Shown in pieces: positions 1,439 through 39,209 of a DNA stretch of 64,000 nucleotides. Source of the stretch: Anaerobacillus sp. CMMVII (lineage in GTDB: Bacteria; Bacillota; Bacilli; Bacillales; Anaerobacillaceae); assembly GCF_025377685.1 (NCBI RefSeq), contig NZ_JACEHK010000010.1:310001-374000 (forward strand). The letters are read 5' to 3'. Each line of letters opens with the position of its first letter. Position 1 is the first letter of the stretch. Below the pieces are notes generated by a model. It ran no database searches and had not been told where the DNA came from. It worked only from the letters and a program-made list of their open reading frames with translations. The translations under genes and the position numbers were made by a program.

Positions 1439-1600
1439 GGCTGTTTTTATCAAAGATTGTTGCTTATAAACTAGTAGTAGCGACATGATATATCAAGGTC
1501 TCGGACATCTTTTCTAACATTCAACCTGTTTTAATCGCTGATATATGGGTTATTTATTGAATAAATTGTCTATAGAGCCACAATGTTTACGAAAAGAGCC
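1439..1600. mobile_element. Short inverted-repeat element, copy 1, with 8-bp target duplication
   Basis: This 162-bp element begins GGCTGTTTTTATCAAAGATT and ends CACAATGTTTACGAAAAGAGCC, so the ends are imperfect inverted repeats. It is bounded on both sides by TTTATTAA (1431-1438 and 1601-1608), an exact 8-bp direct repeat of the kind left by transposition. No ORF is present. The middle (TATATCAAGGTCTC, CATCTTTTCTAACAT) is shared with the copy at 38919-39209. It fills most of the gap between plsC and ypfD (1366-1690). Confidence 0.82.
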
Positions 1601-1623
1601 TTTATTAAAGAATTAAAGTATAA

Positions 1624-1648
1624 GAAAAGCTGGTGCACTAGCTTTTTT
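1624..1648 (+). terminator. Hairpin with T-run before ypfD
   Basis: AAAAGCT and AGCTTTT flank a palindromic GTGCAC core, followed by T residues. It would end transcription from upstream or act in the ypfD leader. It lies about 40 bases before the ypfD start. Confidence 0.6.
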
Positions 1649-1690
1649 AAAATGATCTAAATTTACAGGGGTTGAGGGAGGTAGTTGTTG

Positions 1691-2838
1691 ATGTCAGAAG
1701 AAATGAATCAAGAAATGACTCAAGTGAAAATGTTTAATGAAGGCGAAGTAGTTACAGGAACGGTGACGAAAGTAGAAGACAAGGTTGTCTATGTAAACGT
1801 TGGCTATAAGGTAGATGGAATTATTCCTATCAGTGAGCTGTCTAGTCTTCATGTTGAAAAGGCAACTGAAGCTGTTACTGTTGGGGAAGAGTTAGAATTA
1901 AAAGTGATTAAGGTTTCTGACGAGGAAATCGTTTTATCGAAGCGTGCTGTCCAAGCGGAAAAAGCATGGTCAGAACTTCAAGAAAAGTTTGATAAGAAAG
2001 AGGTATTCGAGGCTCAGGTTGCTGATGTTGTCAAAGGTGGTCTGGTTGTCGATGTAGGAATTAGAGGATTTATTCCAGCTTCCATGGTAGAAAGGCATTT
2101 TGTAGAAGACTTTTCAGATTATAAAGGGAAAACGTTAAGGTTGAAAGTTGTTGAATTAGAAAAAGATGCTAATAAGTTGATTTATCGCAACGTGCAGTTT
2201 TAGATGAAGAAGTAGAAGTACAAAAGAAATCAGCGGTAGAGCAATTAAAGCCAGGTCAGATTGTCGAAGGTACTGTACAACGTTTAACTAATTTTGGTGC
2301 TTTTATTGATATTGGTGGAGTTGATGGGCTAGTACATATTTCCCAGATGGCACATCGCCGTGTTGAATCTCCTTCAGAAATACTTAACGAGGGTGATAAA
2401 GTTAATGTAAAGATACTATCGATAGACCTTGATAATGGCCGTATTTCATTATCTATTAAGGACACGTTGCCAGGTCCATGGGAAGAAGTTGCCCAAAATA
2501 TCAAACCTGGAGATGTTGTAGAGGGAGAAGTAAAACGCCTTGTTTCTTTTGGCGCTTTTGTAGAGGTGGCGCCAGGGGTTGAGGGTCTGGTACACATTTC
2601 TCAGATTGCTAACCGTCACATCGGGACTCCTAGTGAAGCGCTAAAAGAAGGTGAAGTTGTTAAAGCAAAGGTTTTAGATGTAAATGTTGGCGAAAAACGA
2701 ATTTCTTTGAGTATTCGTGAACTTTTAGAAGCTCAGGAAAAGGCGGATATTCCTACAGAAAATTACCAGCGTGATGAAGAAACTAGTGGCTTTTCTCTAG
2801 CTGATGTCATTGGGGACCAACTAAAAAAGTTTAAATAG
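1691..2838 (+). CDS. ypfD: 30S ribosomal protein S1 homolog YpfD, apparent frameshift
   Basis: RNA-binding protein built of four S1 (OB-fold) repeats, related to ribosomal protein S1; non-essential in B. subtilis. Repeats begin near GEVVTGTVTKVED, FEAQVADVVKGG, GQIVEGTVQRLTNFGAF and GDVVEGEVKRLVSFGAF. The frame breaks at the T-run 2181-2183. One added T gives LILSQRAVLDEEVEV and joins both halves into 382 residues, the B. subtilis length. The start was taken as the ATG at 1691, nine bases after AGGGAGG; TTG codons at 1685 and 1688 are alternatives. Confidence 0.9.
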
Positions 2839-2850
2839 TAGGTGAATGTT

Positions 2851-3912
2851 TTGGATAGAACATCAAGAAAGATTGAACATATTGAGCATACTTTAAAGCT
2901 TTCCTGCGAGGAGTCTCATTCGTTCGATGATATTAAGTTTGTTCATCAAAGCCTACCTAACATTGATGTTGATAACGTAGAAATTGAGACAAAAGTTGGC
3001 GAACTATTCCTGAGTTCGCCAATTTTTATCAATGCGATGACGGGTGGGGGCGGCGAACGTACAAGTGATATTAATCGTGAGCTTGCAAAGGTTGCCCGGA
3101 AGTATAATATGCCAATGGCTGTTGGTTCGCAAATGGCGGCGATTAAAGACTCTAAGGAACGGGCTAGCTTTGAAGTAGTACGAGAAGAAAATCCCTCTGG
3201 AATTGTAATAAGTAACATTGGAAGTGAGACAACAGTTAGTCAAGCGATTGAAGCAGTAGAAATGGTTGCGGCTAATGCTTTGCAAATTCATCTAAATGTC
3301 GTTCAAGAGCTTGTTATGCCTGAAGGTGACCGTCATTTTTCTGGTGTGCTAGATAGACTGAGGGATATTGTCGAGCACCTCTCTGTTCCAATTATCGTAA
3401 AAGAAGTAGGTTTTGGAATGAGTAGAGAAACCGCGACAAAGCTAGCTAACATTGGAATAAATATAATCGATGTTGGTGGCTCTGGAGGAACAAATTTTGC
3501 CAGAATAGAAAACCATCGCCGAGCGCAGTCCTTTGAACTCTTTAACGATTGGGGCATCCCAACTGCAGCATCGATTTGTGAAGTGAAAACTTCACAACCG
3601 TTTATCTCTGTTATCGGGACAGGTGGAATTAAGACTGGTTTAGATATTGCAAAAGCACTAAGTTTAGGCTCGTCTGCGGTAGGTGTAGCTGGTATGTTTT
3701 TAAAAGAGTTACATCAAAATGGTCCTGAAGGGTTACAGTTTACAGTGGAGCAATTACATTACGAATTAAAGATGGTAATGGCTGCCTTAGGGATAAAGAA
3801 AATTGATGATCTAAGAAAAGTGCCACTTATAATTAGTGGAGAAACATTCCATTGGTTAAAACAAAGAGGAATCCCTACAAAAAATTACGCTCAAAGAGTC
3901 TATCCACATTAG
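2851..3912 (+). CDS. fni: Type 2 isopentenyl-diphosphate isomerase
   Basis: FMN- and NADPH-dependent enzyme that interconverts isopentenyl and dimethylallyl diphosphate, supplying the prenyl chains used by hepS/hepT. Visible motifs are INAMTGGGGERT near the N terminus, NIGSETTVSQ, HLNVVQELVMPEGDR and the GGSGGTNFARIENHR phosphate/flavin loop; length (about 353 residues) fits. AGGTG at 2840-2844 serves either GTG 2842 (overlapping the site) or TTG 2851 at good spacing, so I chose the TTG. It sits directly after ypfD, as in B. subtilis. Confidence 0.93.
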   Translation: MDRTSRKIEHIEHTLKLSCEESHSFDDIKFVHQSLPNIDVDNVEIETKVGELFLSSPIFINAMTGGGGERTSDINRELAKVARKYNMPMAVGSQMAAIKDSKERASFEVVREENPSGIVISNIGSETTVSQAIEAVEMVAANALQIHLNVVQELVMPEGDRHFSGVLDRLRDIVEHLSVPIIVKEVGFGMSRETATKLANIGINIIDVGGSGGTNFARIENHRRAQSFELFNDWGIPTAASICEVKTSQPFISVIGTGGIKTGLDIAKALSLGSSAVGVAGMFLKELHQNGPEGLQFTVEQLHYELKMVMAALGIKKIDDLRKVPLIISGETFHWLKQRGIPTKNYAQRVYPH

Positions 3913-3945
3913 AAAATACAGTATGCATTTTTGGGTAAGCATATC

Positions 3946-3983
3946 AAAAAAAAGAGGTGACGACGTTGTCTACCTCTTTTTTT
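3946..3983 (+). terminator. Terminator after fni
   Basis: AAAAGAGGT pairs with ACCTCTTTT across a 13-base loop and is followed by a T-run. The A-run on the left also makes it usable on the opposite strand. Confidence 0.8.
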
Positions 3984-4006
3984 GCATTTTTTAAAAAGAG
4001 CATAAC

Positions 4007-4201
4007 CGTTTTTAGTAGTTGATGTTTAGCTTCAGGCGCTATCTGCTCCTGCGGTTACTCGTCAAAAGGTGTAAAGGAGTAGACTCGAGGTCAAATATCC
4101 TGCTAGAGAAAAAGTAACACCACTTTTTCCTCGATATAAAAGTGGAGAGCGTACTTTTAATCTGACAGAACATTGGCTTGTCGCCGATAGGCGCTTTTCT
4201 T
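4007..4201. repeat. Large imperfect hairpin repeat, family of 8529-8610
   Basis: Begins CGTTTTTAGTAGTTGATG and TTCAGGCGCTATC and ends CGCCGATAGGCGCTTTTCTT, so the ends pair as a long hairpin. The first 33 bases match 8529-8561 with about two differences. A 20-base internal segment (4044-4063) recurs inverted and exact at 22723-22742. The form resembles the bcr-type intergenic hairpin repeats of Bacillaceae. It has no ORF. Confidence 0.7.
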
Positions 4202-4209
4202 AAATGCAG

Positions 4210-4341
4210 TTAGCGTTGCCGTTTTTTTGCAGTTTCTGGTCCCTCTAACTTAGTAGCACCTGCATTTTCGAGACTTTGATCACGGTCGGATTCAACATTT
4301 CCTGCTTTCCGCAATTTTTTCTCTTGACGATCTTTACCCAT
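4210..4341 (-). CDS. ypzI: YpzI family small protein
   Basis: A 43-residue hydrophilic protein on the minus strand, beginning MGKDRQEKKLRKAGNVES and containing GATKLEGPE, which I recognise as the YpzI family found next to yphA in Bacillus. Its function is not known. A GA-rich ribosome site (GGATGGTGA) precedes the ATG. The stop lies nine bases beyond the hairpin repeat at 4007-4201, and it diverges from yphA. Confidence 0.8.
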   Translation of the reverse strand: MGKDRQEKKLRKAGNVESDRDQSLENAGATKLEGPETAKKRQR

Positions 4342-4492
4342 TTTATCACCATCCTTCCATTATCTATAGTTTGTAATATTAGGGAGTCTATACAGTTGAT
4401 TAATGAGTAAAAACCATGAATTATCAGAAATTTTTATTACTTTGATTATTTTCTCTATTATTTTCCTATAATGGATGTGGAGGAGTTGCATT

Positions 4493-5104
4493 ATGGAAGG
4501 TGTTTACTTTTACTGGATCTTTTGGATAGGTTGGATTTATACGACCTTTATGTTAGATAAAACGAAGAAGCGTATAAGGATTACAATTGCACTATTATTG
4601 CTCATAATATTTTCAAATAAGTATATTAATGTTGGTGCTATGGAAGTAAATAGTGGCATCTTATTTTGTCTAGGATACGGTTATTATCTAATCTCTCATA
4701 TTAAAAAGAAGTCAATTCTCTACTCTTTAAGTATTAGCTTAATATTAACGACATCTTATGTAACTTTTAGATTGTTTCAATTGTATGACCCTGTTTGGGT
4801 GATGTTCCATCCCACATTGAAATTATCTTTAATATTAGGCCTAATGACAATTTTTTTGATAAGAGAGCAATTAATTAGAATTGGCTTATTATTTATAGCG
4901 ATCGCACAGGGGGAAATTTTCTATACGGTTTTCTTAAACAGTATCGTTCCCCAACCAGTGATAGGGCAATTAGAAAGCTTGGACATTGTAGCATTTACTG
5001 CAAGCATTTGCTTTGTGTGGTTTGCCTTTGAAAAATTTGTAGCTATGTTAGATGAATATGTAAAACAAAGAACTGCCGTAGTCGGTTCTACAAAAAGACC
5101 ATAA
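4493..5104 (+). CDS. yphA: Membrane protein YphA
   Basis: A 203-residue polytopic membrane protein with about six hydrophobic stretches (for example YFYWIFWIGWIYTTFML at the N terminus and ITIALLLLIIF). Its size and place between ypzI and der match B. subtilis YphA, whose function is unknown. The start is the ATG at 4493, seven bases after GTGGAGGAG; an upstream in-frame ATG at 4475 overlaps the ribosome site. Confidence 0.75.
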   Translation: MEGVYFYWIFWIGWIYTTFMLDKTKKRIRITIALLLLIIFSNKYINVGAMEVNSGILFCLGYGYYLISHIKKKSILYSLSISLILTTSYVTFRLFQLYDPVWVMFHPTLKLSLILGLMTIFLIREQLIRIGLLFIAIAQGEIFYTVFLNSIVPQPVIGQLESLDIVAFTASICFVWFAFEKFVAMLDEYVKQRTAVVGSTKRP

Positions 5105-5477
5105 TGAATAAGCGGAGTCATTTTATTAGGGAAAGTGTTAAAAATATTCCATTTATTGGCTGAGTAGCAACCTTGTTCTCTTTCTTTTAGAAAAATCTTG
5201 TTTCTTTCTATTGTTTTTTGATAAAATGGATAAGCTAAGATTTAAAGGAAACTTTACCCTTCTATCTAAATAGAAGGGTTTTGCTATAATTTTCGTTAAA
5301 TTTTTCCCGAGTGAAATTGTGTGAAAAATAATCAAAGGTGTTTTTTTTACACTCTTATGGATTTCATCATTCATTACTTCCGCGATATGTTCAATATATA
5401 GCTTGATTAAGGTGATTATGAAATTCACTCATTTTTATAACAAATTAATAGGTAAGAAAAAGGAAGGTAATTATATT
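5105..5477 (+). other. Intergenic spacer with terminator, yphA to der
   Basis: No gene is seen in these 373 bases. The spacer holds the perfect hairpin ACCCTTCTAT/ATAGAAGGGT (5256-5279) followed by TTTTG. About 20 bases upstream is a possible -10 TAAAAT with TTGTTT 18 bases before it. The part next to der could encode a 20-residue in-frame extension from the ATG at 5418, but Der homologs start at 5478. Confidence 0.6.
5256..5283. terminator. Terminator between yphA and der
   Basis: Perfect 10-bp stem ACCCTTCTAT/ATAGAAGGGT with a 4-base loop, followed by TTTTG on the plus strand and preceded by an A-containing stretch. Confidence 0.75.
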
Positions 5478-6791
5478 ATGACAAAACCAGTAGTAGCAAT
5501 TGTAGGAAGACCAAACGTAGGAAAGTCTACAATTTTTAACAGAATTGTTGGAGAAAGAGTTTCAATTGTTGAAGATATGCCAGGAGTGACAAGAGATCGA
5601 ATTTATAGCTCTGGAGAATGGTTAAATAAAGATTTCAACTTAATTGATACAGGTGGTATTGAAATAAGTGATGAGCCGTTATTAACGCAAATGAGACATC
5701 AAGCAGAGTTAGCGATACAAGAAGCAGATGTGATTGTCTTTATCGTAAACGGCCGTGAAGGAATCACTAATGCAGATGAAGAAGTTGCAAAGATCTTGTT
5801 TCGTTCAAAAAAGCCTGTTGTCTTAGCTGTCAACAAAATTGATAATCCTGAAATGCGCGAGCAACTCTATGAGTTTTACTCATTAGGAATGGGTGATCCA
5901 GTTGCGATATCTGGTTCCCATGGTTTAGGTTTAGGGGATTTATTAGATGAAGTCATCAAACATTTTCCAGAGGGTGAGGAAGATGCGTATGATGAAGATA
6001 CCATTCGTGTATCACTAATTGGTCGACCAAATGTTGGGAAATCGTCCTTAGTAAACTCATTGTTAGGGGAAGAACGAGTCATTGTTAGTAACATTGCCGG
6101 GACAACGAGAGATGCGATTGATACTCCATTTACCGTAGATGACCAACAATATGTATTAATTGATACAGCCGGAATGAGAAAAAGAGGAAAAGTATATGAG
6201 AGTACCGAAAAGTATAGTGTACTAAGAGCTTTAAAGGCAATAGAACGCTCAGACGTTGTTTTAGTTGTTTTAAATGCAGAAGAAGGGATCTTAGAGCAAG
6301 ACAAAAAAATCGCTGGTTACGCACATGAAGCCGGAAGAGCGGTCATTATCGTAGTTAATAAATGGGATGCAATCACAAAGGATGATAAAACGTTACAAAC
6401 GTTTGAGCAGAAGATTAAAGATCACTTCCTATTTTTAGACTATGCACCTATCCTTTTCGTTTCAGCTCACTCTAAACAGCGGTTAAATACAATCCTACCA
6501 ATGGTTAATGTTGTGGCAGAAAATCATAGCTTACGTGTACCGACAAACGTTCTAAATGATTTAATCATGGATGCTGTTGCTATGAATCCTACGCCAACTG
6601 ATAAAGGCAAACGTTTACGAATTAATTATGTTACTCAAGTGGCTATTAAACCACCAACGTTTGTACTTTTTGTTAACGAACCGGAATTGCTGCACTTCTC
6701 ATATGAACGCTTCTTAGAAAATCGGATCAGAGCTACATTTGAGTTTAAAGGAACACCAATTAAAATCATTCCTAGGAAAAAGAACGACTAA
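5478..6791 (+). CDS. der: Ribosome biogenesis GTPase Der (EngA)
   Basis: Essential double GTPase that helps mature the 50S subunit. Two G domains are seen, each with GRPNVGKS (about residues 9 and 182) and with DTGG or DTAG and NKID or NKWD motifs, followed by a C-terminal KH-like domain ending [11 protein letters not shown]. The start at 5478 gives 437 residues, as in B. subtilis (436), and follows AAGGAAGG. An upstream in-frame ATG at 5418 would add about 20 residues and is less likely. plsY and gpsA follow in the same direction. Confidence 0.96.
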
Positions 6792-6845
6792 ACGTTTTCT
6801 CCTAATGCAAAGCATCTTAAAAAGGTATAAATGGGGGAAGAAAAG

Positions 6846-7451
6846 ATGGCTATATTTGTTTCCGTCTTAGTAGGATACCTACTAGGATCAATTAGTTTTA
6901 GTTATATATTTGGAAAAAGACTGAAAAAGGTTGATATTCGTCAACATGGAAGTGGAAATGCAGGAGCGACAAACACACTAAGGGTTTTAGGCGTTGGTCC
7001 CGCGATTGCTGTTTTGCTGTTAGATGCAATAAAAGGAATTCTAGCGGTCTTACTAGGCTTTTATTTAGTTGGTGAAGGAATTGCACCTGCCTTAGCTGGT
7101 CTTGCAGCTATTGTGGGGCATAATTGGCCTGTATTCTTACGTTTTAAGGGTGGAAAAGGGGTTGCAACGACAATAGGAGTACTTGCAACCCTTGTATTCT
7201 GGCCGGCTCTAATTGCTGGAGTTCTTGCGATTATCAGTATTGCAATTACACGTTTTGTGTCTCTTGGTTCATTACTATTTTTGCTTTTAACAACCTTAAT
7301 AACGAGTATGTTTCGTGATTATTTCATTTATCCAATTGAGTATGTATATTTACTTATCATTGTTACCATTTTATCAATATGGAGACATCGGGCAAATATA
7401 GTAAGACTTAGTAAAGGAAATGAAAGTAAGATTGGGAAAAAAGTAAAATAA
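6846..7451 (+). CDS. plsY: Glycerol-3-phosphate acyltransferase PlsY
   Basis: Polytopic membrane enzyme that transfers the acyl group from acyl-phosphate to glycerol 3-phosphate, the first acylation in phospholipid synthesis. Motifs are HGSGNAGATN (near residue 40) and GHNWPVFLRFKGGKGVAT, with five or so membrane segments and 201 residues. ATG 6846 was chosen over 6831 because GGGGGAAG precedes it. Directly upstream of gpsA, which makes its substrate. Confidence 0.94.
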   Translation: MAIFVSVLVGYLLGSISFSYIFGKRLKKVDIRQHGSGNAGATNTLRVLGVGPAIAVLLLDAIKGILAVLLGFYLVGEGIAPALAGLAAIVGHNWPVFLRFKGGKGVATTIGVLATLVFWPALIAGVLAIISIAITRFVSLGSLLFLLLTTLITSMFRDYFIYPIEYVYLLIIVTILSIWRHRANIVRLSKGNESKIGKKVK

Positions 7452-7468
7452 TAGGGAGAGGGAAATAG

Positions 7469-8485
7469 ATGGCAAAAGTTGCAGTTATTGGTGCAGGAAG
7501 TTGGGGAAGTGCTTTAAGTATAGTTTTGACTGATAATAACCACCAGGTTAGTCTCTGGGGACGTGACGAAGTGCAGATGCGCGAAATTAACGAAAATCAT
7601 ACAAATGAAAAGTATCTACCTGGAATTACCTTATCTCAAAATATCTTAGGCTTTACAAATATAGAAGAAGCAATTGCTGGAGTCGAAGCGATTTTACTAG
7701 TAGTCCCTACGAAAGCAATGCGGGAGGTTTTAGGGGAAATAAGACCTTTTCTTAAATCATCAGTAACGTTTATTCATGCTAGTAAGGGTATTGAACCTGA
7801 CAGTTTGAAACGTATTTCTGAAATGATAGAGGAGGAAATACCTGAAAAATTTAGAAAGTCTGTAGTCGTTTTATCTGGCCCAAGCCATGCGGAAGAAGTA
7901 AGTCTGCGTCAACCAACTACAGTTACTAGTTCTTCTTTGCAAATGGAAGCAGCTGAATATGTTCAAGATTTATTTATGAATATGCATTTTCGCGTCTATA
8001 CAAATCCAGATTTAATTGGAGTTGAAATCGGAGGTGCGTTAAAAAATATAATAGCTCTTGGAGCTGGCTTAACAAATGGTTTGGGTTTTGGAGATAACGC
8101 AAAAGCGGCGCTAATGACAAGGGGCTTAGCTGAGATTGCTCGTTTAGGAATAAAATTAGGAGCTAGCCCATTAACCTTTGCAGGTTTATCGGGGTTAGGA
8201 GACTTAATTGTAACGTGTACGAGTGTTCATAGCCGTAATTGGCGAGCAGGTAATCTATTGGGACAAGGGCAGTCACTAGACGAGGTACTAGAGAATATGG
8301 GAATGGCAGTAGAAGGTGTCCGAACAACTAAAGCGGCTTACCAATTAGCCATTCGTGAGGGTGTAGAAATGCCAATTACAACTGTTCTTTATGATGTATT
8401 GTTTAATAATAAACAGCCACAGGTAGCTGTTGATGAGCTTATGGGGCGAGTGAAAACTCATGAGGTAGAAGATTTGCGTTTGTAA
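7469..8485 (+). CDS. gpsA: Glycerol-3-phosphate dehydrogenase [NAD(P)+]
   Basis: Reduces dihydroxyacetone phosphate to sn-glycerol 3-phosphate for phospholipids. The 338-residue protein has the Rossmann motif GAGSWGSAL (residues 7-15), the VLSGPSHAEEV segment and EIGGALKNIIALGAG with the catalytic lysine. It starts 17 bases after plsY, preceded by AGGGAGAGG, and so probably shares its transcript. Confidence 0.97.
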   Translation: MAKVAVIGAGSWGSALSIVLTDNNHQVSLWGRDEVQMREINENHTNEKYLPGITLSQNILGFTNIEEAIAGVEAILLVVPTKAMREVLGEIRPFLKSSVTFIHASKGIEPDSLKRISEMIEEEIPEKFRKSVVVLSGPSHAEEVSLRQPTTVTSSSLQMEAAEYVQDLFMNMHFRVYTNPDLIGVEIGGALKNIIALGAGLTNGLGFGDNAKAALMTRGLAEIARLGIKLGASPLTFAGLSGLGDLIVTCTSVHSRNWRAGNLLGQGQSLDEVLENMGMAVEGVRTTKAAYQLAIREGVEMPITTVLYDVLFNNKQPQVAVDELMGRVKTHEVEDLRL

Positions 8486-8528
8486 GACGAGTTATTTTGA
8501 CTTTTCTAGAAAGACTAAAATATTTAAA

Positions 8529-8610
8529 CGTTTTTAGTAGTTGATGTCTACCTTCAGGCGCCCTAGGAAAAAGCACTACGCTTTTTCCTAGGGCGCCTTG
8601 TGCTTTTCTT
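8529..8610. repeat. Hairpin repeat with perfect 18-bp stem after gpsA
   Basis: The leader (8529-8561) matches 4007-4039. The core 8557-8574 is an exact reverse complement of 8580-8597 around the 5-base loop ACTAC, and the tail TTGTGCTTTTCTT is T-rich. It probably also works as the gpsA terminator. Together with the elements downstream it fills the 598-base gap 8486-9083. Confidence 0.78.
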
Positions 8611-8617
8611 ATTATTA

Positions 8618-9001
8618 CGCTCTTTTCTAAAGGTTCTTTTCGTAAACATTGTGGCTTTTTAACGTAAAATAATTGGAAAAATTCCTTATGATGAAGATAT
8701 CACTCAATAAATTTAGTAAGAAAAGAGCGCTACTTGCTAAATAAGTTGTGAAATCTTAGTATTTTTGTGTAAAAATCCGACTTTTGGGATTTTTACGAAA
8801 GCAACAAACTTTGCGAAAACAGCCTATCTAAAAGATAGTTGCTATTAGCTTTTAGGTCGTAACCAATTGAATGCTTGGTTCTTCACGCTTTGCGTGAAGC
8901 TTTTGAGAATAAATAAGCCATTGGGACAAATAAATTTGTCCTAAAAAGCTTATTTATTCTTAATAGACGACCTAAAAGCAACAAAGTTTACGAAAAAAGC
9001 C
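8618..9001. mobile_element. Short inverted-repeat element, host copy interrupted by a second copy
   Basis: Read on the minus strand it starts GGCTTTTTTCGTAAACTTTG and ends AAAAGAGCG. It is flanked by TATTATTA (8610-8617) and TATTATAA (9002-9009), 7 of 8 matching. Removing 8632-8824 plus one duplicated octamer restores the terminal segment found intact at 37316-37412. The inner arms form long palindromes around the segment pair CTTTTAGGTCGT/ACGACCTAAAAG. No ORF. Confidence 0.8.
8632..8824. mobile_element. Short inverted-repeat element, nested copy
   Basis: A 193-bp element from GGTTCTTTTCGTAAACATTG to GCGAAAACAGCC, inserted within the element 8618-9001. The flanks are TTTCTAAA (8624-8631) and TATCTAAA (8825-8832), 7 of 8 matching. 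Its reverse complement is related along most of its length to the copy at 22538-22760 (shared CTTTCGTAAAATCCCAAAAG-type segment). Confidence 0.82.
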
Positions 9002-19951: not shown

Positions 19952-19991
19952 GGCTGTTTTCGTAAATTTTGTTTGCTTTTAGAAAAGAGCG
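19952..19991. mobile_element. Minimal 40-bp inverted-repeat element
   Basis: Consists of little more than the two ends, GGCTGTTTTCGTAAATTTTG and TTTTAGAAAAGAGCG. It is flanked by TTCTATTG (19944-19951) and TTCTATTT (19992-19999), 7 of 8 matching. It was inserted right after the hepT terminator. Confidence 0.68.
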
Positions 19992-20910: not shown

Positions 20911-21687
20911 ATGGATGATTATCAGGGTTTTATCTTAAATGTAAAAAGTAAGACTGGCATCGATTTGTCATTATATAAAGAAGCACAAATGAAGCGGAGA
21001 TTAAGTTCTTTAAGAGACAAACGTGGGTTTAATGATTTTTTAAGTTATTTTCAAGCAATGATTAGAAGTCAAGAATTATTTGATGAATTTCTTGAAAGGA
21101 TGACGATTAACGTTTCAGAATTTTATCGGAATCCAATACGGTGGGAAGTACTTGAGAGAAAAGTGCTACCACGTCTCTTACAATCGAATAGACGATTGAG
21201 GGTCTGGAGTGCAGCATGTTCTACAGGGGAAGAGCCCTACACGTTAGCGATGATTTTGAATAAGCAAGGGGTTGCGGATAATACTACAATTATTGCAACA
21301 GATATAGATCGATCTATTTTGGATCGAGCCAGGGCTGGTATTTATACAGATCGTTCTATGAAAGATGTACCGAAAGAAATGCTTGCAAAGTACTTTTTAA
21401 ATGATGGCATGGGCTTCCGAGTCAAAGATGAGATAAAGAACATGATAACTTTTAAACAAGGGAACTTATTAGCTGATAAATTTGAGCAGAACTTTGATCT
21501 CATCATTTGCCGAAACGTGATGATTTATTTTACTGAGGAAGCAAAAGACGAACTTTACCACAAATTTAGTCGAGCATTGCGTCCGGGTGGAACTCTTTTC
21601 GTAGGAAGTACAGAACAAATCTTTAACCCAGGTGAATATGGATTTGAAAACGAGGATACTTTTTTTTATCGAAAGCCCTTTTCGTAA
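20911..21687 (+). CDS. cheR: Chemotaxis receptor methyltransferase CheR
   Basis: Methylates glutamates on chemoreceptors using SAM, setting adaptation. The N-terminal helical domain includes [18 protein letters not shown] and [12 protein letters not shown], followed by the SAM site [17 protein letters not shown] and [10 protein letters not shown]; 258 residues. The C terminus FFYRKPFS and the stop codon are supplied by a sequence that looks like an element end (CCTTTTCGTAAACTTTGTTGC), so an insertion seems to have replaced the last codons. It precedes the aro genes, as in B. subtilis. Confidence 0.93.
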
Positions 21688-21854
21688 ACTTTGTTGCTAT
21701 TTAATTGTTGAATGGCAAGTTAGAAAAGATACCCGCCTAACTTGATGTAATGGCCTAATGAAAAAAACAATTTATGAGAGAACAGGCTTATCGAAAAACC
21801 TGAAAAGATAGTAACAGGTTCCGTTTCCTATCACAAACATTAAAAATTCAGATC

Positions 21855-22537: not shown

Positions 22538-22760
22538 GGCTGTTTCCGTAAACTTTGTTGCTTTCGTAAAATCCCAAAAGCCGGATTTTTACTCATGAAC
22601 ACTAAGATTTCACTATTTATTTAGTAAGCATTGCTCTTTTCTTACTTATTTTAATGGGTGAATTCTTCAACTAAGGGATTTATCTAATTATCTTTGGATA
22701 AATAGCAACAAGTTTTTTGTGCGACGAGTAACCGCAGGAGCAATGTTTACGAAAAGAGCC
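22538..22760. mobile_element. Short inverted-repeat element, copy upstream of aroC
   Basis: Runs from GGCTGTTTCCGTAAACTTTG to CAATGTTTACGAAAAGAGCC, about 223 bp. Its interior is related to the reverse complement of 8632-8824. A 20-base segment of the hairpin repeat at 4044-4063 is found inverted at 22723-22742, just inside the right end, so this copy is a mosaic. The flanks do not show a clear duplication. Confidence 0.7.
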
Positions 22761-22955: not shown

Positions 22956-24131
22956 ATGAGATATTTAACTGCTGGTGAGTCACATGGCCCACAATTAACG
23001 ACAATAATAGAAGGGGTTCCTGCCCACTTAAATTTAGTACAAGAGGATGTTAATGTAGATTTAGCTAGACGCCAAAAGGGACATGGTCGTGGCAGACGAA
23101 TGCAAATTGAAAAGGACCAAGTGAAGATCACAAGTGGTGTCCGACACGGTAAAACCACAGGTGCACCGATAACTTTGATTGTTGAAAACGATGATTGGAA
23201 GCATTGGACGACGATCATGGGAATTGAACCATTAGATGATACCATGACAGAAGAGGACGTCAAACGAAAAATAACACGACCTCGTCCTGGCCACGCCGAC
23301 TTGGTTGGCGCTATGAAATACAATCATCGTGATATGCGGAATGTCTTGGAAAGATCTTCTGCTAGAGAAACAACGGTTAGAGTTGCTGCAGGCGCAGTCG
23401 CTAAAAAGATATTAGCTACTTTTGGAATTAAAGTAGGTAGTCATGTACTAGAAATTGGCGGAGTTAAAGCAGAAACTACACACTATGAATCAATTGAAGA
23501 ACTCCAAGAGAAAACGGAAAATTCTCCGGTTCGTTGCTTAGATCCCATTGCTGAACAAAAAATGATGGTAGCGATTGACCAAGCGAAAAAAGATGGCGAT
23601 TCTATCGGAGGAATTGTTGAGGTTGTGATCGAAGGGGTACCAGCTGGCTTAGGGAGCTATGTACAGTATGATAAGAAATTAGATGCAAAAATTGCTGGTG
23701 CTGTTATGGGAATTAACGCCTTTAAAGGTGTAGAGGTAGGAATTGGATTCGAAGCTGCTAGCAAACCAGGAAGTAAAGTTCACGATGAAATCATCTGGGA
23801 TCAGGCAACGGGTTATAAACGTCGGACAAATAATTTGGGTGGATTTGAAGGTGGAATGACCACAGGTATGCCAATCGTTGTTCGTGGAGTTATGAAGCCG
23901 ATTCCAACACTTTATAAGCCGCTCCAAAGTGTTGATATTGAGACGAAAGAAATTTTCGAAGCATCGATTGAACGTTCTGATAGTTGTGCGGTTCCAGCTG
24001 CGGCTGTTGTTGCAGAGGCCTGTGTGGCATGGGAAGTTGCAGTAGCCTTATTGGATAAATTCGGAAGTGATTTTATTGATGAAATTAGTGAGAATATTGA
24101 GCGTTACAAGGAACGGGTGAGAGACTTTTAA
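22956..24131 (+). CDS. aroC: Chorismate synthase
   Basis: FMN-dependent enzyme that makes chorismate from EPSP (aroF in B. subtilis naming). The 391 residues begin [20 protein letters not shown] and contain [46 protein letters not shown] and [20 protein letters not shown] precedes the ATG. The stop overlaps the aroB start by one base (TAATG), so the genes are probably co-translated. Confidence 0.97.
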
Positions 24132-32250: not shown

Positions 32251-32301
32251 GAAAGCTCGATGGAAAAGTAGGATCAAATTTCGTGAATTGAGGTGTAAAA
32301 G

Positions 32302-33387
32302 ATGAAAGTGAAACAGCAACTTATCGGGCTCCCTCCTTATAAACCTGGAAAGCCGATTGAAGAAGTAAAAAAACAGTTTGGATTAGCAGAAGTCATTAAA
32401 CTTGCTTCAAATGAAAATCCTTTTGGATGTTCGAAATTTGCAAAACAAGCAATTAGCGAAGCATTAGATAATTTAGCGATCTATCCAGACGGTTATGCAG
32501 CTACGATTCGCACTGATGTTGCCAATGTCTTGAAAGTAAAGGAAGACCAGCTTATATTTGGAAATGGCTCTGATGAGATTATTCAAATTCTATGTCGGGC
32601 ATTATTAAGTCCTGAAACAAATACGGTATGCGCTGTTCCTTCTTTTCCCCAGTATAAACATAATGCAGTAATTGAAGGTGCAGAAGTTCGCGAAGTTACT
32701 TTGATTAATGGAGTTCATGATTTAGAGGGGATGCTCGCACAAATTGACGAGAATACCCGTATCGTTTGGGTTTGTAACCCTAATAATCCTTCTGGTACAT
32801 ATGTATCTGCCGAAAAGTTTAAAGAATTCATTGCGAGGGTCCCTAAAGATGTCCTAGTTGTGAGTGACGAAGCTTACTATGAGTATGTCGTGGCTGAAGA
32901 CTACCCGGAAACGATCCCTTTACTAAAAGAGTACGAAAACTTAATGGTTTTAAGGACGTTCTCTAAAGCTTACGGTTTGGCTTCGTTACGAATAGGTTAT
33001 GGAGTTGGAAATCCACAATTCATTGAGAAAATAGAACCGGCACGAGAACCGTTTAATACTTCTTTACTTGCACAGGTTGCTGCAAGTGCTGCTTTAGGGG
33101 ATCAGCAATTTATTAGTTCTTGTAAGTCTCAAAATCGTGAAGGGCTTGAACAGTTTTATTCGTTTTGCAATGAATATAAGTTAGACTACTATCCTTCGCA
33201 AGGAAATTTTATCTTAATTGATTTAAAGAAACCAGGAAATGATAGTTTTAATTATTTGTTAGCTAGAGGTTTTATTGTTCGCTCAGGTGAAGCATTAGGA
33301 TTTCCTACATCACTTAGAATAACAGTTGGGAATGCAAGGCAAAATGATGCTATCATTGAAGAACTGAAAAATTTTTTAAATAGTTAA
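32302..33387 (+). CDS. hisC: Histidinol-phosphate aminotransferase
   Basis: PLP transaminase for histidine that in this context also serves tyrosine and phenylalanine synthesis. It has [33 protein letters not shown] and the PLP lysine in [17 protein letters not shown]; 361 residues. Placed between trpA and tyrA as in the B. subtilis supraoperon. Confidence 0.95.
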
Positions 33388-33482
33388 TTGTGTAGAGTGT
33401 GGGGTGTAAGGAATTGGTGTTTCCGATTCTTAACTAACTCTACACTCTATCATTTATAGATTGAAATGGGGGAGAAGAAACA

Positions 33483-34586
33483 TTGATTAGGAAAGTGTTT
33501 GTCATTGGATTAGGATTGATAGGTGGTTCAATCGCCTTAGCAATAAAAAAAGAACATTCCAATGCCCTAGTATTCGGTTATGATATAAAAGAAGATCAAC
33601 TGAAAATGGCAAAATCCTTAGGAGTTATTGATGAATATGTAGAAGATATAAACGAAGGAGCTACCAATGCTGACTTAATTATATTAGCAACTCCTGTTAC
33701 AAAAACAGAAGAACTTATTGACATATTGGTAAACTGTGAGTTGAAACCATCAGCGATTATTACAGATGTAGGAAGTACAAAAGAAAAAATCGTTGAAAAG
33801 GCAAGAGCTTTTAATGACAAAAAAGTGGCATTTATTGGTGGTCATCCAATGGCTGGCTCCCATAAAACAGGGGTTGACGCTGCTAGGGCTCATCTCTTTG
33901 AAAATGCCTTTTACATTTTGACTCCTTCACCACAAACAAATATGAACAAAATTATTCAGCTTCAAAATTGGCTGAAAGGAACCAAAGCAAAATTTATAGA
34001 AATGTCTCCAAAACAACATGACGAACTTGCAGGTGTTATTAGTCATTTTCCTCATATTATTGCAGCTAGCTTAGTACACCAAGTAGCGAAAATGGAGGAA
34101 GAGCAACCTGAGCTCTCAAATCTAGCTGCAGGAGGTTTTCGTGATATTACAAGAATTGCCTCCGCTAGTCCAATTATGTGGCGAGACATCCTAATTCATA
34201 ACAAAGAGACCTTGTTAAAGCTCTTAACTCGTTGGCAAGAGGAAATGGATTATGTGAAGCAATTAATAGATAATGCTGAAGCAGGGCAGATCTTTGAGTA
34301 TTTTCAAGCGGCCAAAACGTTTAGAGACGAACTACCAGTAAAACAAAAAGGAGCAATTCCATCTTTTTATGATTTGTATGTAGATGTTCCTGATCACCCT
34401 GGGGTTATCTCTGATGTAACAGGAATATTAGCTAGACAAGAAATTAGTATTACGAACATTCGGATTTTAGAAACTCGTGAGGATATTATGGGTGTGCTCC
34501 GACTGAGCTTTAGATCTGACCAAGACCGGGATCGTGCATTATCTTGTTTACAGGAGCATTTATACGAGGGCTACATAAGTTCTTAA
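33483..34586 (+). CDS. tyrA: Prephenate dehydrogenase with ACT domain
   Basis: Oxidatively decarboxylates prephenate to 4-hydroxyphenylpyruvate with NAD. The N-terminal Rossmann motif VIGLGLIGGSIALAI, VGSTKEKIV and GGHPMAGSHKTGVDAA are followed by a C-terminal ACT regulatory domain (from about residue 297, LYVDVPDHPGVISDVTGIL) for tyrosine feedback. A TTG start eight bases after GGGGGAG gives 367 residues. Confidence 0.95.
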   Translation: MIRKVFVIGLGLIGGSIALAIKKEHSNALVFGYDIKEDQLKMAKSLGVIDEYVEDINEGATNADLIILATPVTKTEELIDILVNCELKPSAIITDVGSTKEKIVEKARAFNDKKVAFIGGHPMAGSHKTGVDAARAHLFENAFYILTPSPQTNMNKIIQLQNWLKGTKAKFIEMSPKQHDELAGVISHFPHIIAASLVHQVAKMEEEQPELSNLAAGGFRDITRIASASPIMWRDILIHNKETLLKLLTRWQEEMDYVKQLIDNAEAGQIFEYFQAAKTFRDELPVKQKGAIPSFYDLYVDVPDHPGVISDVTGILARQEISITNIRILETREDIMGVLRLSFRSDQDRDRALSCLQEHLYEGYISS

Positions 34587-34720
34587 AGCTTCTCCATTAA
34601 ACGACAATCTATTGTATGAACGTAAAGCATAGTATAAAAAATGATTTTCAGCACAAATACATAGTTGAAAATGAATGATAGATGGTATCGATTATTCGAA
34701 ATATAGAGAGGTGGTCAATC

Positions 34721-36004
34721 ATGACAAAAAAAGTTGTCGAACGTGTTCAACAATTAAAAGGAACAATTAAAGTTCCTGGTGATAAATCGATTTCACATCG
34801 GGCTGTTATGTTTGGTGCAATTGCAAATGGGACAACAACGGTAGAAGGATTCTTGCCGGGTGAAGATTGTTTAAGTACGATTTCCTGTTTTCAAAAACTT
34901 GGTGTTAAAATCGAGCAGGAAGAAGAAAGTGTGACTGTTCATGGAAAAGGTTGGGAAGGACTACGAGAGTCTTCTGAAATATTAGATGTAGGGAATTCCG
35001 GAACGACAACTCGCTTAATGTTAGGGATTTTAGCCACACGACCTTTTCACTCTATTGTAATTGGAGATGCTTCAATTGCCAAAAGGCCAATGGCCAGAGT
35101 CACAGCACCCCTAAAACAAATGGGAGCTCAAATAGATGGTCGCAATGAAGGGGATTTTACTCCACTGGCCATACGGGGGGGACAAACCAAAGCGATTAAC
35201 TACATGTCACCTGTCGCAAGTGCTCAAGTAAAGTCTGCCATCCTACTTGCTGGTTTGCAAAGTGAAGGGGTGACAACTGTAACGGAACCACATAAATCTC
35301 GTGATCATACGGAGCGAATGTTGAAGGCGTTTGGAGTCGAGTTAGAAGAAAACGAACTTTCTGTTTCGGTTCGTGGTGGACAAGCGTTGCAAGGACAACA
35401 TGTTGTTGTGCCTGGAGATATTTCTTCAGCAGCTTTCTTTTTAGTAGCTGGTGCGATTATCCCTAATAGTGAAATCAAATTAATGAATGTTGGTGTAAAT
35501 ACAACACGAACTGGAATTATTGATGTACTACTTCAAATGGGTGCTGAACTTGAAATAACGAATGAAAAGATCATTAACGAAGAAAGAATGGCTGATTTAA
35601 CCATTAGGACATCAAAACTAAACGGTATTGAAATTGGTGGCGAGATCATTCCACGCCTAATCGACGAAATTCCAGTTATCGCTATTTTAGCTACACAAGC
35701 AAATGGGACGACTATTATTAAAGATGCCCAAGAGCTAAAAGTCAAAGAAACAAACAGAATTGATACTGTGGTAAATCAGTTGAAATTATTGGGTGCAAAC
35801 ATTGAAGCAACCGAGGATGGGATGATTATCCACGGACCTACGCTATTGTCGGGTGGGAAAGTAGCAAGTTTTGGGGACCACAGAATTGGAATGTCTATGG
35901 CTATTGCCGGCCTAGTGGCTAATCAACCAGTAGAAATAGATGAAATTGAAGCTGTCGATGTATCTTATCCGAACTTTTTTCAACATTTAGAGGAATTAAT
36001 TTAA
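34721..36004 (+). CDS. aroA: 3-phosphoshikimate 1-carboxyvinyltransferase (EPSP synthase)
   Basis: Joins phosphoenolpyruvate to shikimate 3-phosphate (aroE in B. subtilis naming). It contains [49 protein letters not shown] and [15 protein letters not shown]; 427 residues. ATG 34721 is preceded by AGAGAGGTGG; an ATG at 34682 would add 13 residues without a good ribosome site. Last gene of the supraoperon. Confidence 0.96.
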
Positions 36005-36028
36005 TATAAAAAATTTTCAGAATATTTA

Positions 36029-36057
36029 TTGACAGCTCATAATTTCAAGACTATAAT
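36029..36057 (+). promoter_or_regulatory. Consensus sigma-A promoter after aroA
   Basis: TTGACA (36029-36034), exactly 17 bases, TATAAT (36052-36057): a full match to the sigma-A consensus. It drives the candidate small RNA that follows. Confidence 0.85.
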
Positions 36058-36063
36058 GAAAGT

Positions 36064-36181
36064 ATTCAGTTCCCATTTTAACGATTTTTAGTTAGTTATA
36101 CTTAGTGCTTAATGTTGCGGTATAACTTCAATTCTCCACTCCAACCAATTTTCCTGCCTTCACGGGCAGGAGCTTTTTTTT
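36064..36181 (+). ncRNA. Candidate small RNA with C-rich loop, about 118 nt
   Basis: Begins where the consensus promoter would start transcription and ends at the intrinsic terminator 36153-36181. No ORF with a ribosome site is present. An 8-bp stem AGTTATAC (36094-36101)/GTATAACT (36120-36127) is followed by an unpaired C-rich stretch TTCTCCACTCCAACC, then the terminator. C-rich loops of this kind pair with Shine-Dalgarno sequences in Gram-positive regulatory RNAs. It could instead be an attenuated leader for the gene at 36318. Confidence 0.6.
36153..36181 (+). terminator. Intrinsic terminator of the candidate small RNA
   Basis: CCTGCC/GGCAGG stem with a 6-base loop, AGC and eight T residues. 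Confidence 0.85.
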
Positions 36182-36267
36182 GTTGTGATTGAATTATATA
36201 GGATAAGAAAATTTAGGTATATGATGTTCCTTCCTCACATAGCTTGTCTATAAGAAAGTTTTAAAAA

Positions 36268-36297
36268 AGAAAGCGTCCATACGGGTTTGGCGCTTTT
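36268..36297 (+). terminator. Hairpin just before the amidohydrolase-like gene
   Basis: GAAAGCG and CGCTTTT pair with an inner CC/GG, followed by TTTTAT. It lies 20 bases before the next start codon, so it may be a leader structure rather than a true terminator. Confidence 0.4.
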
Positions 36298-36317
36298 ATG
36301 ATGTGAAGGAGGGCAAA

Positions 36318-37247
36318 ATGAGTTATATAATTGAGAATACGCTAACAAACCTCTACGGTGTAGAACATAAAAATTCGTATATTATTGAAGGTTCGAAAGT
36401 TATTTATAGTTCAAAGCACCTTTCCAAATATCGTCACTTCCGAGTTAACACAAACCAGTTTGTGTTAACACCTGGTTATATCATGATTGATTTCGGTATT
36501 CTTACGATTGATGATTTTCAAGGTTTTAAAGATGGTATGAAACACTTACAAACCATTGGTTGCACAACGTTAATTACAGCATGTGATGTCCAGGTAGAGG
36601 ATCAAATCGATAGAGAGTTAAAGAGAGCTAAGCACGCATTAATAAACAGTAGTATTGACTATTTACTAGGAGTGAAAATACCTCTTAAGAAGCTAACTCC
36701 CACGCTCGTAAGAAAATGCTGTAAATACAAAGTTCCAATCTTGTTTACTGAGATTAATGCCCCAGAAGACATTCACACGATCCAATGGCAATGGATTCGT
36801 AATGAGCTTTTTCCTTACCAAATCATGATTGTTCCTATCTGGAATATTTCTGCTCCTGCATGGAAGCTCCGTAAATTAAAATCTGATTGGGATGACGTAT
36901 TAACCAAGAATAAGATTTTGACACAACAAGACTCTCCTTCAGAACATACACCATTACCAAAACAGTTTTTATTTAATATTGGCCTGTATCCGATGAAGGG
37001 TTCTTTACAAGTAGGAACTGATGCAGACTATTTACTGTTCTCTAGTAAAGGTTTAGTTGATAATGAAAGTGATCTTGGGGAACTCTATCCCGACGTTGTT
37101 ATCGCGAATGGAATAGTAAAAAAGGCAGGGTCCAACGTTATAATGCAGCCAGGATGTGGAAAGGAGCTAATTGTAAATATTCCACGGAGGTTTAATCCAA
37201 TTAGCAATGCGTTTCAGTCCGATGCTATATCTATTGATTATTATTAA
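36318..37247 (+). CDS. Degenerate amidohydrolase-like protein
   Basis: A 309-residue cytoplasmic protein. The C-terminal MKGSLQVGTDADYLLFSSKG and VVIANGIVKKAG are typical of the small beta domain of amidohydrolases, and the N-terminal FVLTPGYIMIDFGI sits where active enzymes have PGLIDxHxH. The metal-binding histidines are missing there, so it is probably not a metal hydrolase. I know no function. ATG 36318 follows AAGGAGGG. It lies between aroA and ypiA. Confidence 0.65.
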   Translation: MSYIIENTLTNLYGVEHKNSYIIEGSKVIYSSKHLSKYRHFRVNTNQFVLTPGYIMIDFGILTIDDFQGFKDGMKHLQTIGCTTLITACDVQVEDQIDRELKRAKHALINSSIDYLLGVKIPLKKLTPTLVRKCCKYKVPILFTEINAPEDIHTIQWQWIRNELFPYQIMIVPIWNISAPAWKLRKLKSDWDDVLTKNKILTQQDSPSEHTPLPKQFLFNIGLYPMKGSLQVGTDADYLLFSSKGLVDNESDLGELYPDVVIANGIVKKAGSNVIMQPGCGKELIVNIPRRFNPISNAFQSDAISIDYY

Positions 37248-37280
37248 TAGAAATGTCTATAATTATAGTACTCCTTTAAT

Positions 37281-37312
37281 GCCCACCAAATTAGCGGTGG
37301 CTTTTCTTTTTT
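37281..37312 (+). terminator. Terminator after the amidohydrolase-like gene
   Basis: GCCCACC/GGTGGC stem and CTTTTCTTTTTT tail. Confidence 0.8.
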
Positions 37313-37315
37313 AAA

Positions 37316-37412
37316 GGCTGTTTTCGTAAACTTTGTTGCTTTTAGGTCGTAACCAAGCATTCGCTTGGTTACGACCTAAAAGCTAATAGCAACAATCTTT
37401 TAGAAAAGAGCG
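37316..37412. mobile_element. Short inverted-repeat element, intact 97-bp copy
   Basis: Runs GGCTGTTTTCGTAAACTTTG to TTTTAGAAAAGAGCG and is flanked by exact TTTTTAAA octamers (37308-37315 and 37413-37420). Its centre (37339-37382) is a perfect 20-bp stem with a 4-base loop. It was inserted in the T-run of the preceding terminator. A further 140 bases up to ypiA (37421-37587) contain a second end-like segment (CAATGCTTACGAAAAGATCC at 37533-37552) and no gene. Confidence 0.85.
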
Positions 37413-37587
37413 TTTTTAAAAGATAGGATGTTATATCTTAGATGAGGCAACCCAAGCTTGCGAGGTCGGACCTTTTGTAGGGGCTAAGCAGGGAAAAAAA
37501 GTAAACACACTTTTTCCTAGGAAAAAGCACACAATGCTTACGAAAAGATCCATAAAATAAAATGAATGAACGGATAGGAGCGGGAAC

Positions 37588-38850
37588 ATGAATATAGGAC
37601 TAAAAAAATCGTTGCAGTTTATTGAAGAGGGGAAGATGGAAGAGGCGCTTGCCTTGTTGCAACAGGTAAATGCAACTGGTGATCACGAAACAAAATATTC
37701 TGTAGCAGAAATTTACTATGAATTAGGATTAGTAGATTTAGCTAAAGCAATCATCGAAGAGCTTTTACTACTATACCCTGATGAGGGTGAACTATATACT
37801 TTTATGGCTGAGCTATTAATAGACTTAGATGAGGAAGATGAAGCTATTGAAATTCTTTTGGAAATTAAAGAAAGTGATCCTGTGTTTGTTCAAGGGCAAC
37901 TTCTATTAGCAGATCTGTACCAACTTCAAGGATTAGATGAAGTGGCTGAACAAAAACTATTAAGTGCAGAAGCGTTAGTTCCTGATGAGCCAGTCGTTTT
38001 ATTTGGTTTAGGGGAATTTTACTTGTTTAGAGGTGATTACTTAAAATCAATCCCTTACTATAAAAGAGTTTTACCTTTCCAGGAAGAGTTAGATGGAACA
38101 AATATTGCTTTACGTTTAGCTGAGGCATACAGCGCGAGTGGAGCCTTTGAAGAGGCGTTGACGTTTTATGAAAAAGGAATTAGCGATGATTCACCAATTG
38201 ATGCTCATTTCGGCTATGGTTACACAGCGTTTCAAATAGGTGAATACACGACAGCAATTGCTCATTTTGAAAAAGTAATAGACATGGACGAGAGCTATTC
38301 AAGCGTTTATTCCTACCTAGGAGAAGCCTATGAAGAAGAAGGTAAAATCTATGAAGCTTTACAAATTTTTAAAAAGGGAATTGAGATTGATGAGTTTAAT
38401 GAAGCACTATACGTTCAAGGAGCGAGAGTTTCGTTAAACAACGGCTATATTGATGAGGGTGAAAGTTACTTAAGGAAAGTGTTAGCGATTAATCCAAGCA
38501 ACTTTGAGGGGGCAAAGATGCTCGCTAGTTTATTGAAGAAGGAAGAACGTTTTGAAGACCTTCAAGAATTAATTAATTTTTTAAAGGAGCAAGGCGAAGA
38601 AGATCCACTATTTGATTGGTTTCTAGCAACTGCTAAGCGAAACCTAGATGATGATCCTAATGTTATCGAAAATTATGAAGAAATTTTTGAGCAACTCTCA
38701 TATGACAGTGACTTCTTAGAGGAATTTGGACAAGTCCTTTTAGAAAATGGATTCCTAAAAAAGGCAATCAATATCTTTGAAATGGCACTTAAATTAGACC
38801 CTTCAAAAGATGAACTAAAACAATTACTGTTTGAATTAGAGAATGATTGA
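37588..38850 (+). CDS. ypiA: TPR protein YpiA
   Basis: A 420-residue soluble protein made almost wholly of tetratricopeptide repeats (for example AEIYYELGLVDLAKAIIEEL, GYTAFQIGEYTTAIAHFEKV, EAYEEEGKIYEALQIFKKGI). B. subtilis YpiA has the same size and place next to ypiB, and has been linked with ClpC-dependent turnover of MurAA. TPRs imply protein binding. ATG follows GGATAGGAG. Confidence 0.85.
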   Translation: MNIGLKKSLQFIEEGKMEEALALLQQVNATGDHETKYSVAEIYYELGLVDLAKAIIEELLLLYPDEGELYTFMAELLIDLDEEDEAIEILLEIKESDPVFVQGQLLLADLYQLQGLDEVAEQKLLSAEALVPDEPVVLFGLGEFYLFRGDYLKSIPYYKRVLPFQEELDGTNIALRLAEAYSASGAFEEALTFYEKGISDDSPIDAHFGYGYTAFQIGEYTTAIAHFEKVIDMDESYSSVYSYLGEAYEEEGKIYEALQIFKKGIEIDEFNEALYVQGARVSLNNGYIDEGESYLRKVLAINPSNFEGAKMLASLLKKEERFEDLQELINFLKEQGEEDPLFDWFLATAKRNLDDDPNVIENYEEIFEQLSYDSDFLEEFGQVLLENGFLKKAINIFEMALKLDPSKDELKQLLFELEND

Positions 38851-38918
38851 TCATACAGTTATGAATAAATCAGCAGCTACTTAGTGATATGTGGGGTAAA
38901 AAGATTATGATATTTATT

Positions 38919-39209
38919 GGCTGTTTTCGTAAACTTTGATGCTTTTAGGTCGTCTTTTGAGAATAAATAAGCTTCACGCAAGCATGAAGAACCAAGCATT
39001 CGCTTGGTTACGACCTAAAAGCTAGTAGCAACGACTTTTTAGAAAAGAGCGTTTGCCAGAGATTATTGCTTTTAAATTTGCTAGTAATGACAAGAGATAT
39101 ATCAAGGTCTCAGGGGCATCTTTTCTAACATGCGATGGCTGTAAACATATAAATAGGAACGATTATTTTAATCGGTATCTAAAAAGCCACAATATTTACG
39201 AAAAGAGCC
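38919..39209. mobile_element. Short inverted-repeat element, 291-bp composite copy
   Basis: Bounded by exact TATTTATT octamers (38911-38918 and 39210-39217). The left third resembles the 97-bp type, including an AGAAAAGAGCG end at about 39044-39054, and the rest resembles the 162-bp copy at 1439 (ATATATCAAGGTCTC, CATCTTTTCTAACAT, GCCACAATATTTACGAAAAGAGCC). It thus looks like two elements joined into one mobile unit. It fills most of the 433-base gap between ypiA and the next gene. Confidence 0.83.

Follow-up and report, generated by a model that had tools for sequence, protein, structure and literature searches.

Bacterial miniature inverted-repeat transposable elements (MITEs) are short and encode no protein, have inverted ends and target duplications, occur in many copies and are presumably moved in trans. 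Insertion sequences (ISs) of the IS1595 family (NF033547 / PF12762), a family whose founding paper is reportedly Siguier 2009, have a transposase with a zinc-binding N-terminus, make 8-bp target duplications and, in some members, carry passenger genes. ISL3 elements have GGCTCTTT-like ends and also make 8-bp duplications; the duplication length of IS231 and of its mobile insertion cassette (MIC) MIC231, both of the IS4 family, differs from the 8 bp considered here. MTnSag1 and tISCpe8 (IS1595) have inverted repeats of 25 bp, duplicate 8 bp of AT-rich targets and carry passenger genes (PMC5704250); MICs are IS-related objects that lack a transposase (PMC3129680), and IS231 elements hold passenger genes in extra DNA (PMC2266710). 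Here we analysed a family of inverted-repeat elements in a 64,000-nucleotide stretch of the genome of Anaerobacillus sp. CMMVII (the window; contig NZ_JACEHK010000010.1, positions 310,001 to 374,000). A preliminary description of the window had listed seven transposase-less copies, claimed that they transpose in trans with 8-bp target duplication, and guessed at the ISL3 group.

Judged from sequence comparisons, the copies are very probably MITEs moved in trans by the transposase of one IS1595-family clade that recognises ends of ∼24 bp. The clade elements, which we found in other Bacillales, share with IS1595 the match to the transposase model, the zinc-binding N-terminus, the 8-bp duplications and the passenger genes of some members; the clade is placed at the level of the family, not of a subgroup, and the window copies differ from IS1595 in having no transposase. 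Unlike other bacterial MITEs, these copies have a partner that was not found in the home genome and several unrelated interiors with only the ends in common, and they nest in one another's ends at a single, constant position. A layout similar to that of MICs is seen in two elements described below (L125 and L271; L and G numbers are our labels for loci and genomes), which are tied to a different transposase family and come from genomes other than that of the window. Among the papers on IS1595 and MITEs listed by our search, which lay mostly outside the subscription journals, and in passages of PMC3129680, PMC7986276 and PMC9208149, we found no description of this family. We regard the copies as members of a large family of IS1595-type MITEs.

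Short copies with 8-bp target duplications

We searched the home genome (4.87 Mb in 21 contigs) with both ends and tabulated the flanking octamers, the check that the preliminary description had proposed. Over the whole genome the 16-mer end GGCTGTTTTCGTAAAC was found at 222 sites within 2 mismatches, compared to 4 for its reversed control, and the two 24-mer ends (≤3 mismatches) at 176 and 111 sites, compared to 0 and 0. The counts that follow refer to 799,932 bases, made up of 99 stretches around the listed ends plus the window, where 326 ends within 5/24 mismatches were observed against 0 in the reversed control. When ends were paired as mutual nearest neighbours with the octamers ignored, 113 pairs were obtained, having octamers that were exact in 40 cases, one-off in 26, two-off in 18 and more mismatched in 29. 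Shuffling the octamers of these pairs predicts 0.81, 3.19 and 10.68 for the first three classes, and the 66 pairs with at most one mismatch stand against a maximum of 11 in 1000 shuffles. Exact flanking repeats of 7, 8 and 9 bp were found in 5, 40 and 3 pairs, respectively; the duplication length is therefore 8 bp. The target consensus, TTTwwAAA, is AT-rich. An earlier, octamer-assisted pairing had yielded 123 elements, 47 with exact and 30 with one-off octamers.

The 77 copies with at most one octamer mismatch are 82–409 bp long, and none lies by more than half inside an open reading frame (ORF) of ≥90 aa, even though ORFs called in the same crude way make up 74% of the fetched DNA. The copies are thus short, lack a transposase or any other gene, and are bounded by inverted ends and a target duplication of fixed length, as expected of MITEs; the further MITE feature, ends common to an autonomous element, was observed in other genera only. 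BLAST placed 95 copies (≤2 octamer mismatches, ≤450 bp) in groups of 49 (121–226 bp; identity up to 99%), 20 (167–189 bp) and 5, three groups of 3 and two of 2, leaving 8 singletons; both two-member groups are nested composites. Genes flanking the copies were co-directional in 55 cases, convergent in 8 and divergent in 14, compared to 303, 81 and 91 in background gaps, which is not a strong orientation preference. Two copies stand in tandem (L179:2371-2561 and 2570-2761), with octamer TAGATAAA at both sides and in between.

Copies nested within other copies provide empty sites inside the genome itself. We left out the inner copy together with one octamer and searched with the outer copy by BLAST. 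In all four nested copies examined, the outer copy was restored and had near-full-length relatives. The outer window copy 8618-9001, reduced to 183 bp, is 95% identical to L147:2460-2642 and gave 22 near-full-length rows; the other three gave 15, 6 and 4, counts in which some places appear twice because the database includes the nested composites. The octamer excess and the nested empty sites strongly support the proposal that the copies transposed in trans, duplicating 8 bp of the target.

The family extends beyond the home genome. We sampled 27 outside loci (7 earlier and 20 fetched), pairing ends of ≤7/24 mismatches with the help of the octamers; paired ends with ≤2 octamer mismatches were found at 17 of them (10 exact) and at none of the other 10. 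Four copies in G001 are 88–93% identical to home copies over their length, and most other sampled genera have only the ends in common with home copies. A copy in G197, a genome from a different family within the order, has 82.5% identity over 183 bp to a copy of the 182-bp group; since this likeness lies in non-coding DNA, it suggests that such a copy was transferred between lineages.

IS1595 elements with the same ends

The preliminary description had also proposed looking for an IS with matching terminal repeats, and such ISs, with 8-bp duplications, were found in an IS1595-family clade of other Bacillales. The trail led through L125 in G028, a 1.1-kb element with the MITE ends and the C-terminus of an IS1595 transposase. 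This piece scores below the cut-off of PF12762 (E 0.007) and is 75% identical to residues 239-334 of the L129 transposase, a protein of 335 aa that lies between matching ends with a 7-of-8 duplication. The L129 protein exceeds the cut-offs of NF033547 (IS1595; 203.9 bits, cut-off 75), of PF12762 (60.1, cut-off 27) and, with its zinc-binding N-terminal domain, of NF050000 (51.3 bits, cut-off 28), and is slightly below that of PF12760 (23.3 vs 25.4). A search with this protein gave matches in 140 of 397 genomes of the order, including a clade at 57–81% identity.

Matching ends together with an exact 8-bp duplication were found at 13 of the 21 clade loci (L236-L256); at one of these, L245, an end contains a 1-bp gap. 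This amounts to 13 of the 16 testable loci, as an end or flank is missing at L240, L244, L251, L253 and L256. In the remaining three, L236 (the same place as L129) has a 7-of-8 duplication, and L246 and L248 have both ends and no duplication. The end GGCTGTTTTCGTAAACTTTGTTGC of window copy 37316 is identical, letter for letter, to that of L237 and L239. Elements of the clade with an intact transposase measure 1.4–2.0 kb. Match to a curated transposase model, zinc-binding N-terminus and 8-bp target duplication together place the cognate IS in the IS1595 family. Beyond the clade, L260, which coincides with L132, shows the two ends and octamers matching at 6/8, and paired ends were absent from all eight more distant IS1595 loci (40–44% identity; L257-259, L261-265). 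At six further loci from the PF12762 search (L127, L128, L131, L133, L134, L135), no pair reached ≤2 octamer mismatches; two weak ends are present in L127 and L128. In the search for a partner on plasmids (queried with one end) or phages (queried with a whole window copy), the matches were short or weak only.

We propose that the MITEs, mostly 80–410 bp long, would be non-autonomous and mobile through their ends alone. A transposase of the IS1595 clade would recognise ends of roughly 24 bp, GGCTsTTTTCGTAAAC...TTGTTGC, and move the element, duplicating 8 bp of the AT-rich target TTTwwAAA. Deletions inside cargo-carrying IS1595 elements give transposase-less derivatives, as seen in L125, L271 and L274 from three other genomes (below); the MITEs would be the extreme case. 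The MITE families probably arose several times, because many of them have little in common beyond their ends.

No cognate transposase found in the home genome

Some points speak against the assignment to the IS1595 clade. No transposition event was seen, and likeness between MITE interiors and the cognate elements, 15 of which were compared, is confined to the ends and spans at most about 52 bp. Searches of the home genome with PF12762, the L129 protein, a 16-sequence profile and NF033547, even at E 10, returned no IS1595 transposase, and for this reason the partner is inferred from other genera; the assembly of 21 contigs could miss an IS copy. Among the 397 genomes sampled from the order, 87 contain exact 16-mer ends, compared to 4 with the reversed pattern; 25 of the 87 have at least 10, and by profile search none of these 25 holds a full-length cognate transposase. 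No sampled genome thus combined the partner with a MITE burst.

The preliminary description had asked for clean empty sites in relatives; beside the nested copies, which supply them within the genome, the support from relatives is partial. Orthologous same-genus spacers without ends (within 6/24 mismatches) were found at four of six window sites, in 3 genomes at 1439 and in 5 each at 22538, 37316 and 38919; at 1439, both flanking genes were found in 3 genomes, not both in G004 and G002. At the other two sites one genome of five, G001, has its own end (8618 spacer) or its own copy (19952 spacer), the latter at a different point of the spacer than the home copy. At the level of bases, alignment with G003 was weak, two-sided only at 19952, where it is short, one-sided at 37316 and 38919, and gave no resolved junction at 1439 and 8618. 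As the same-genus relatives are only 71–75% identical over trpE and the next gene, the orthologous evidence is much weaker than that from nesting. Spacer length alone is no evidence, since end-less spacers of relatives are sometimes longer than the home spacer (G004 and G005 at 19952; G005 at 38919).

The MITE family looks orphaned in its host genome. We infer that the cognate transposase was once present in the Anaerobacillus lineage, moved the MITEs and was then lost. The profile search of the 25 MITE-rich genomes gave matches in 11 and none in 14; the only full-length match, in G323, belongs to another IS1595 group and is without MITE ends. We do not claim that MITE-rich genomes tend to lack the transposase, because only about one co-occurrence is expected by chance (an estimate). 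C-terminal pieces of the transposase, of about 40–50 residues, were found in G030, G043, G073, G289 and G377. In two of these genomes the piece belongs to a complete element that lacks a transposase and is flanked by an exact duplication: L271 in G043 (945 bp; TTTATTTT) and L274 in G377 (649 bp; TTTTTAAT). These two keep the last 41–48 transposase residues; L125, with its 7-of-8 duplication, keeps about 95. The existence of the deletion derivatives L271 and L274 makes internal deletion a likely route to MITEs. L271 and L125 also contain a recognisable passenger gene and so have the make-up of a MIC (passenger gene, IS ends, no transposase), which the window copies do not; L274 has no recognisable gene. 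In G378 (C11, C13, C16, C17, C19, C20) we observed 79 exact ends and 14 matches to transposase pieces, none full-length; this is a possible late stage of transposase loss.

Three other explanations were weighed. A different transposase, unrelated to IS1595 and still present in the home genome, could move the MITEs by cross-recognition, and an abundant family with some nearly identical copies in a genome without an IS1595 transposase would fit this. We consider it improbable: in the stretches around listed ends, end pairs separated by ≤5 kb and with no more than 2 mismatched octamer positions exceed 450 bp only at L219 (716 bp) and L196 (1830 bp), and the ORFs of L196, the one of the two examined for them, do not look like a transposase. 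Still less likely, and rejected here, is the earlier guess of ISL3-family MITEs, in which an ISL3 transposase would recognise the GGCTCTTT-like ends and leave 8-bp duplications. Of 41 genomes searched, 18 have ISL3 transposases; the home genome is not among the 18 and gave no match to PF01610, none of 30 ISL3 loci of relatives has paired ends within 2/16 mismatches (L090 has one stray end), and it is the IS1595 clade whose elements have these ends and duplications. Functional intergenic repeats (REP-like or RNA elements), flanked by chance repeats in AT-rich spacers, would account for the avoidance of ORFs by all 77 copies and have next to no standing, given repeats specific to 8 bp and far above shuffles, nested empty sites that contradict chance repeats, matching ends around IS1595 transposases, and no Rfam match at the window copies.

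Window copies, self-insertion and cargo

The copies in the window are given in Table 1. The seven copies listed earlier were all found in place when ends and flanks were read directly, and the reported three exact and three 7-of-8 flanking repeats were both borne out; copy 22538-22760 is the seventh, without a usable duplication. As claimed, they encode no protein, in that no ORF of ≥100 aa overlaps any of them. Two refinements were obtained: copy 8632-8824 is nested within copy 8618-9001, and copy 38919-39209 is a mosaic of two copies. A BLAST comparison of the window with the remaining copies returned the noted places and one additional remnant. The closest relative of copy 1439-1600 in that comparison is L184:2105-2257 (77.6% over its length). 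The mosaic at 38919-39209 apparently moved as a single unit, because one exact duplication encloses two MITEs. Elsewhere in the window, an Rfam pan motif lies at 53142-53230 (72.2 bits).

Table 1. Elements of the MITE family in the window, with their target octamers (left / right)
Position	Feature	Octamers	Remarks
1431..1438	Left target octamer of copy 1439-1600	TTTATTAA	Right octamer at 1601-1608
1439..1600	MITE	TTTATTAA / TTTATTAA, exact	162 bp; spacer upstream of ORF 1685-2203
8618..9001	Outer MITE, interrupted	TATTATTA / TATTATAA, 7/8	183 bp after leaving out nested copy and one octamer
8632..8824	Inner MITE	TTTCTAAA / TATCTAAA, 7/8	193 bp; insertion site, positions 7-14 of the outer end
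19952..19991	Remnant of two fused ends	TTCTATTG / TTCTATTT, 7/8	40 bp; likely empty site in same-genus G003
21663..21785	Degraded MITE remnant		Absent from the preliminary description; best BLAST match to other copies 74.7% over 79 aligned columns
22538..22760	MITE	TTAATTTA / TTTAGATA, differ, 5/8	223 bp; upstream of aroC (22956-24131)
37316..37412	MITE	TTTTTAAA, exact	97 bp; member of a 3-member short family
38919..39209	Mosaic of two abutting MITEs (38919-39051, about 39052-39209)	TATTTATT, exact	Single duplication around both

Nesting is not confined to the window. Of the 95 copies, 7 lie inside the end of another copy (≤3/24 mismatches), and in all 7 the octamer is at positions 7-14 of that end. 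Shuffled flanks gave a mean of 1.8 and a maximum of 4 in 30 rounds; at 2 mismatches, 6 self-insertions were observed compared to a mean of 0.8 and a maximum of 3. Octamer preference alone predicts about 1 self-insertion, and under that estimate the chance of at least 7 is about 1e-4. The 3-mismatch limit was chosen after a looser control had failed: a count of 10/95 at ≤6 mismatches was no better than shuffled flanks (means 8.25 and 7.7), because half an end alone passes that limit, and this count was not used. The self-insertion is partly explained by the end itself, which holds good targets (TTTCTAAA, TTTCGTAA). Insertion of copies into each other's ends at a fixed position may be new.

We also examined the cargo of 21 cognate elements, 17 of which contain a clade transposase, intact or broken (L129, L237-L239, L241-L250, L252, L254, L255), the others being L132, L125, L271 and L274. 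All 21 contain an extra ORF of ≥60 aa, the shortest of which (63–70 aa) may be chance, and in 20 the largest is convergent with the transposase (exception, L274). Only the extra ORFs of L245 and L246 are related to each other at E 1e-3. When 14 non-transposase proteins from 12 of the elements were compared with Pfam, 7 exceeded the cut-off: HAD hydrolase, alpha/beta hydrolase, helix-turn-helix, 2'-5' RNA ligase-like, DUF6176, mycothiol-S-transferase/DinB and nucleotidyltransferase. The remaining 7 matched no family above its cut-off. An extra ORF that faces the transposase and differs in almost every cognate element may likewise be a new observation. In the home genome, the ends at L196:12872-14701, 1.83 kb apart with 6-of-8 octamers, enclose ORFs that by eye resemble an oxidoreductase and a membrane protein; this is either a cassette or a chance pair.

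A broader picture, which we put forward tentatively and hold to be possible at best, is that the MITEs are the residue of a widespread single-gene shuttle, the IS1595 clade of Bacillales. One cargo slot opposite the transposase would be refilled with a new gene in nearly all lineages, and the transposase-less offspring would persist as gene cassettes and MITEs; with the ends as a preferred landing site, copies would stack at a fixed position and could build mosaics and exchange cargo.

A large, apparently orphan MITE family is hereby tied to a transposase family, and its mobilisation in trans becomes testable with a named group of enzymes. The occurrence of the ends across the order points to an easily overlooked source of repeats affecting many genomes. 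Self-insertion at a fixed site and a cargo slot of varied content hint at ways in which such elements might acquire genes and become mosaics.

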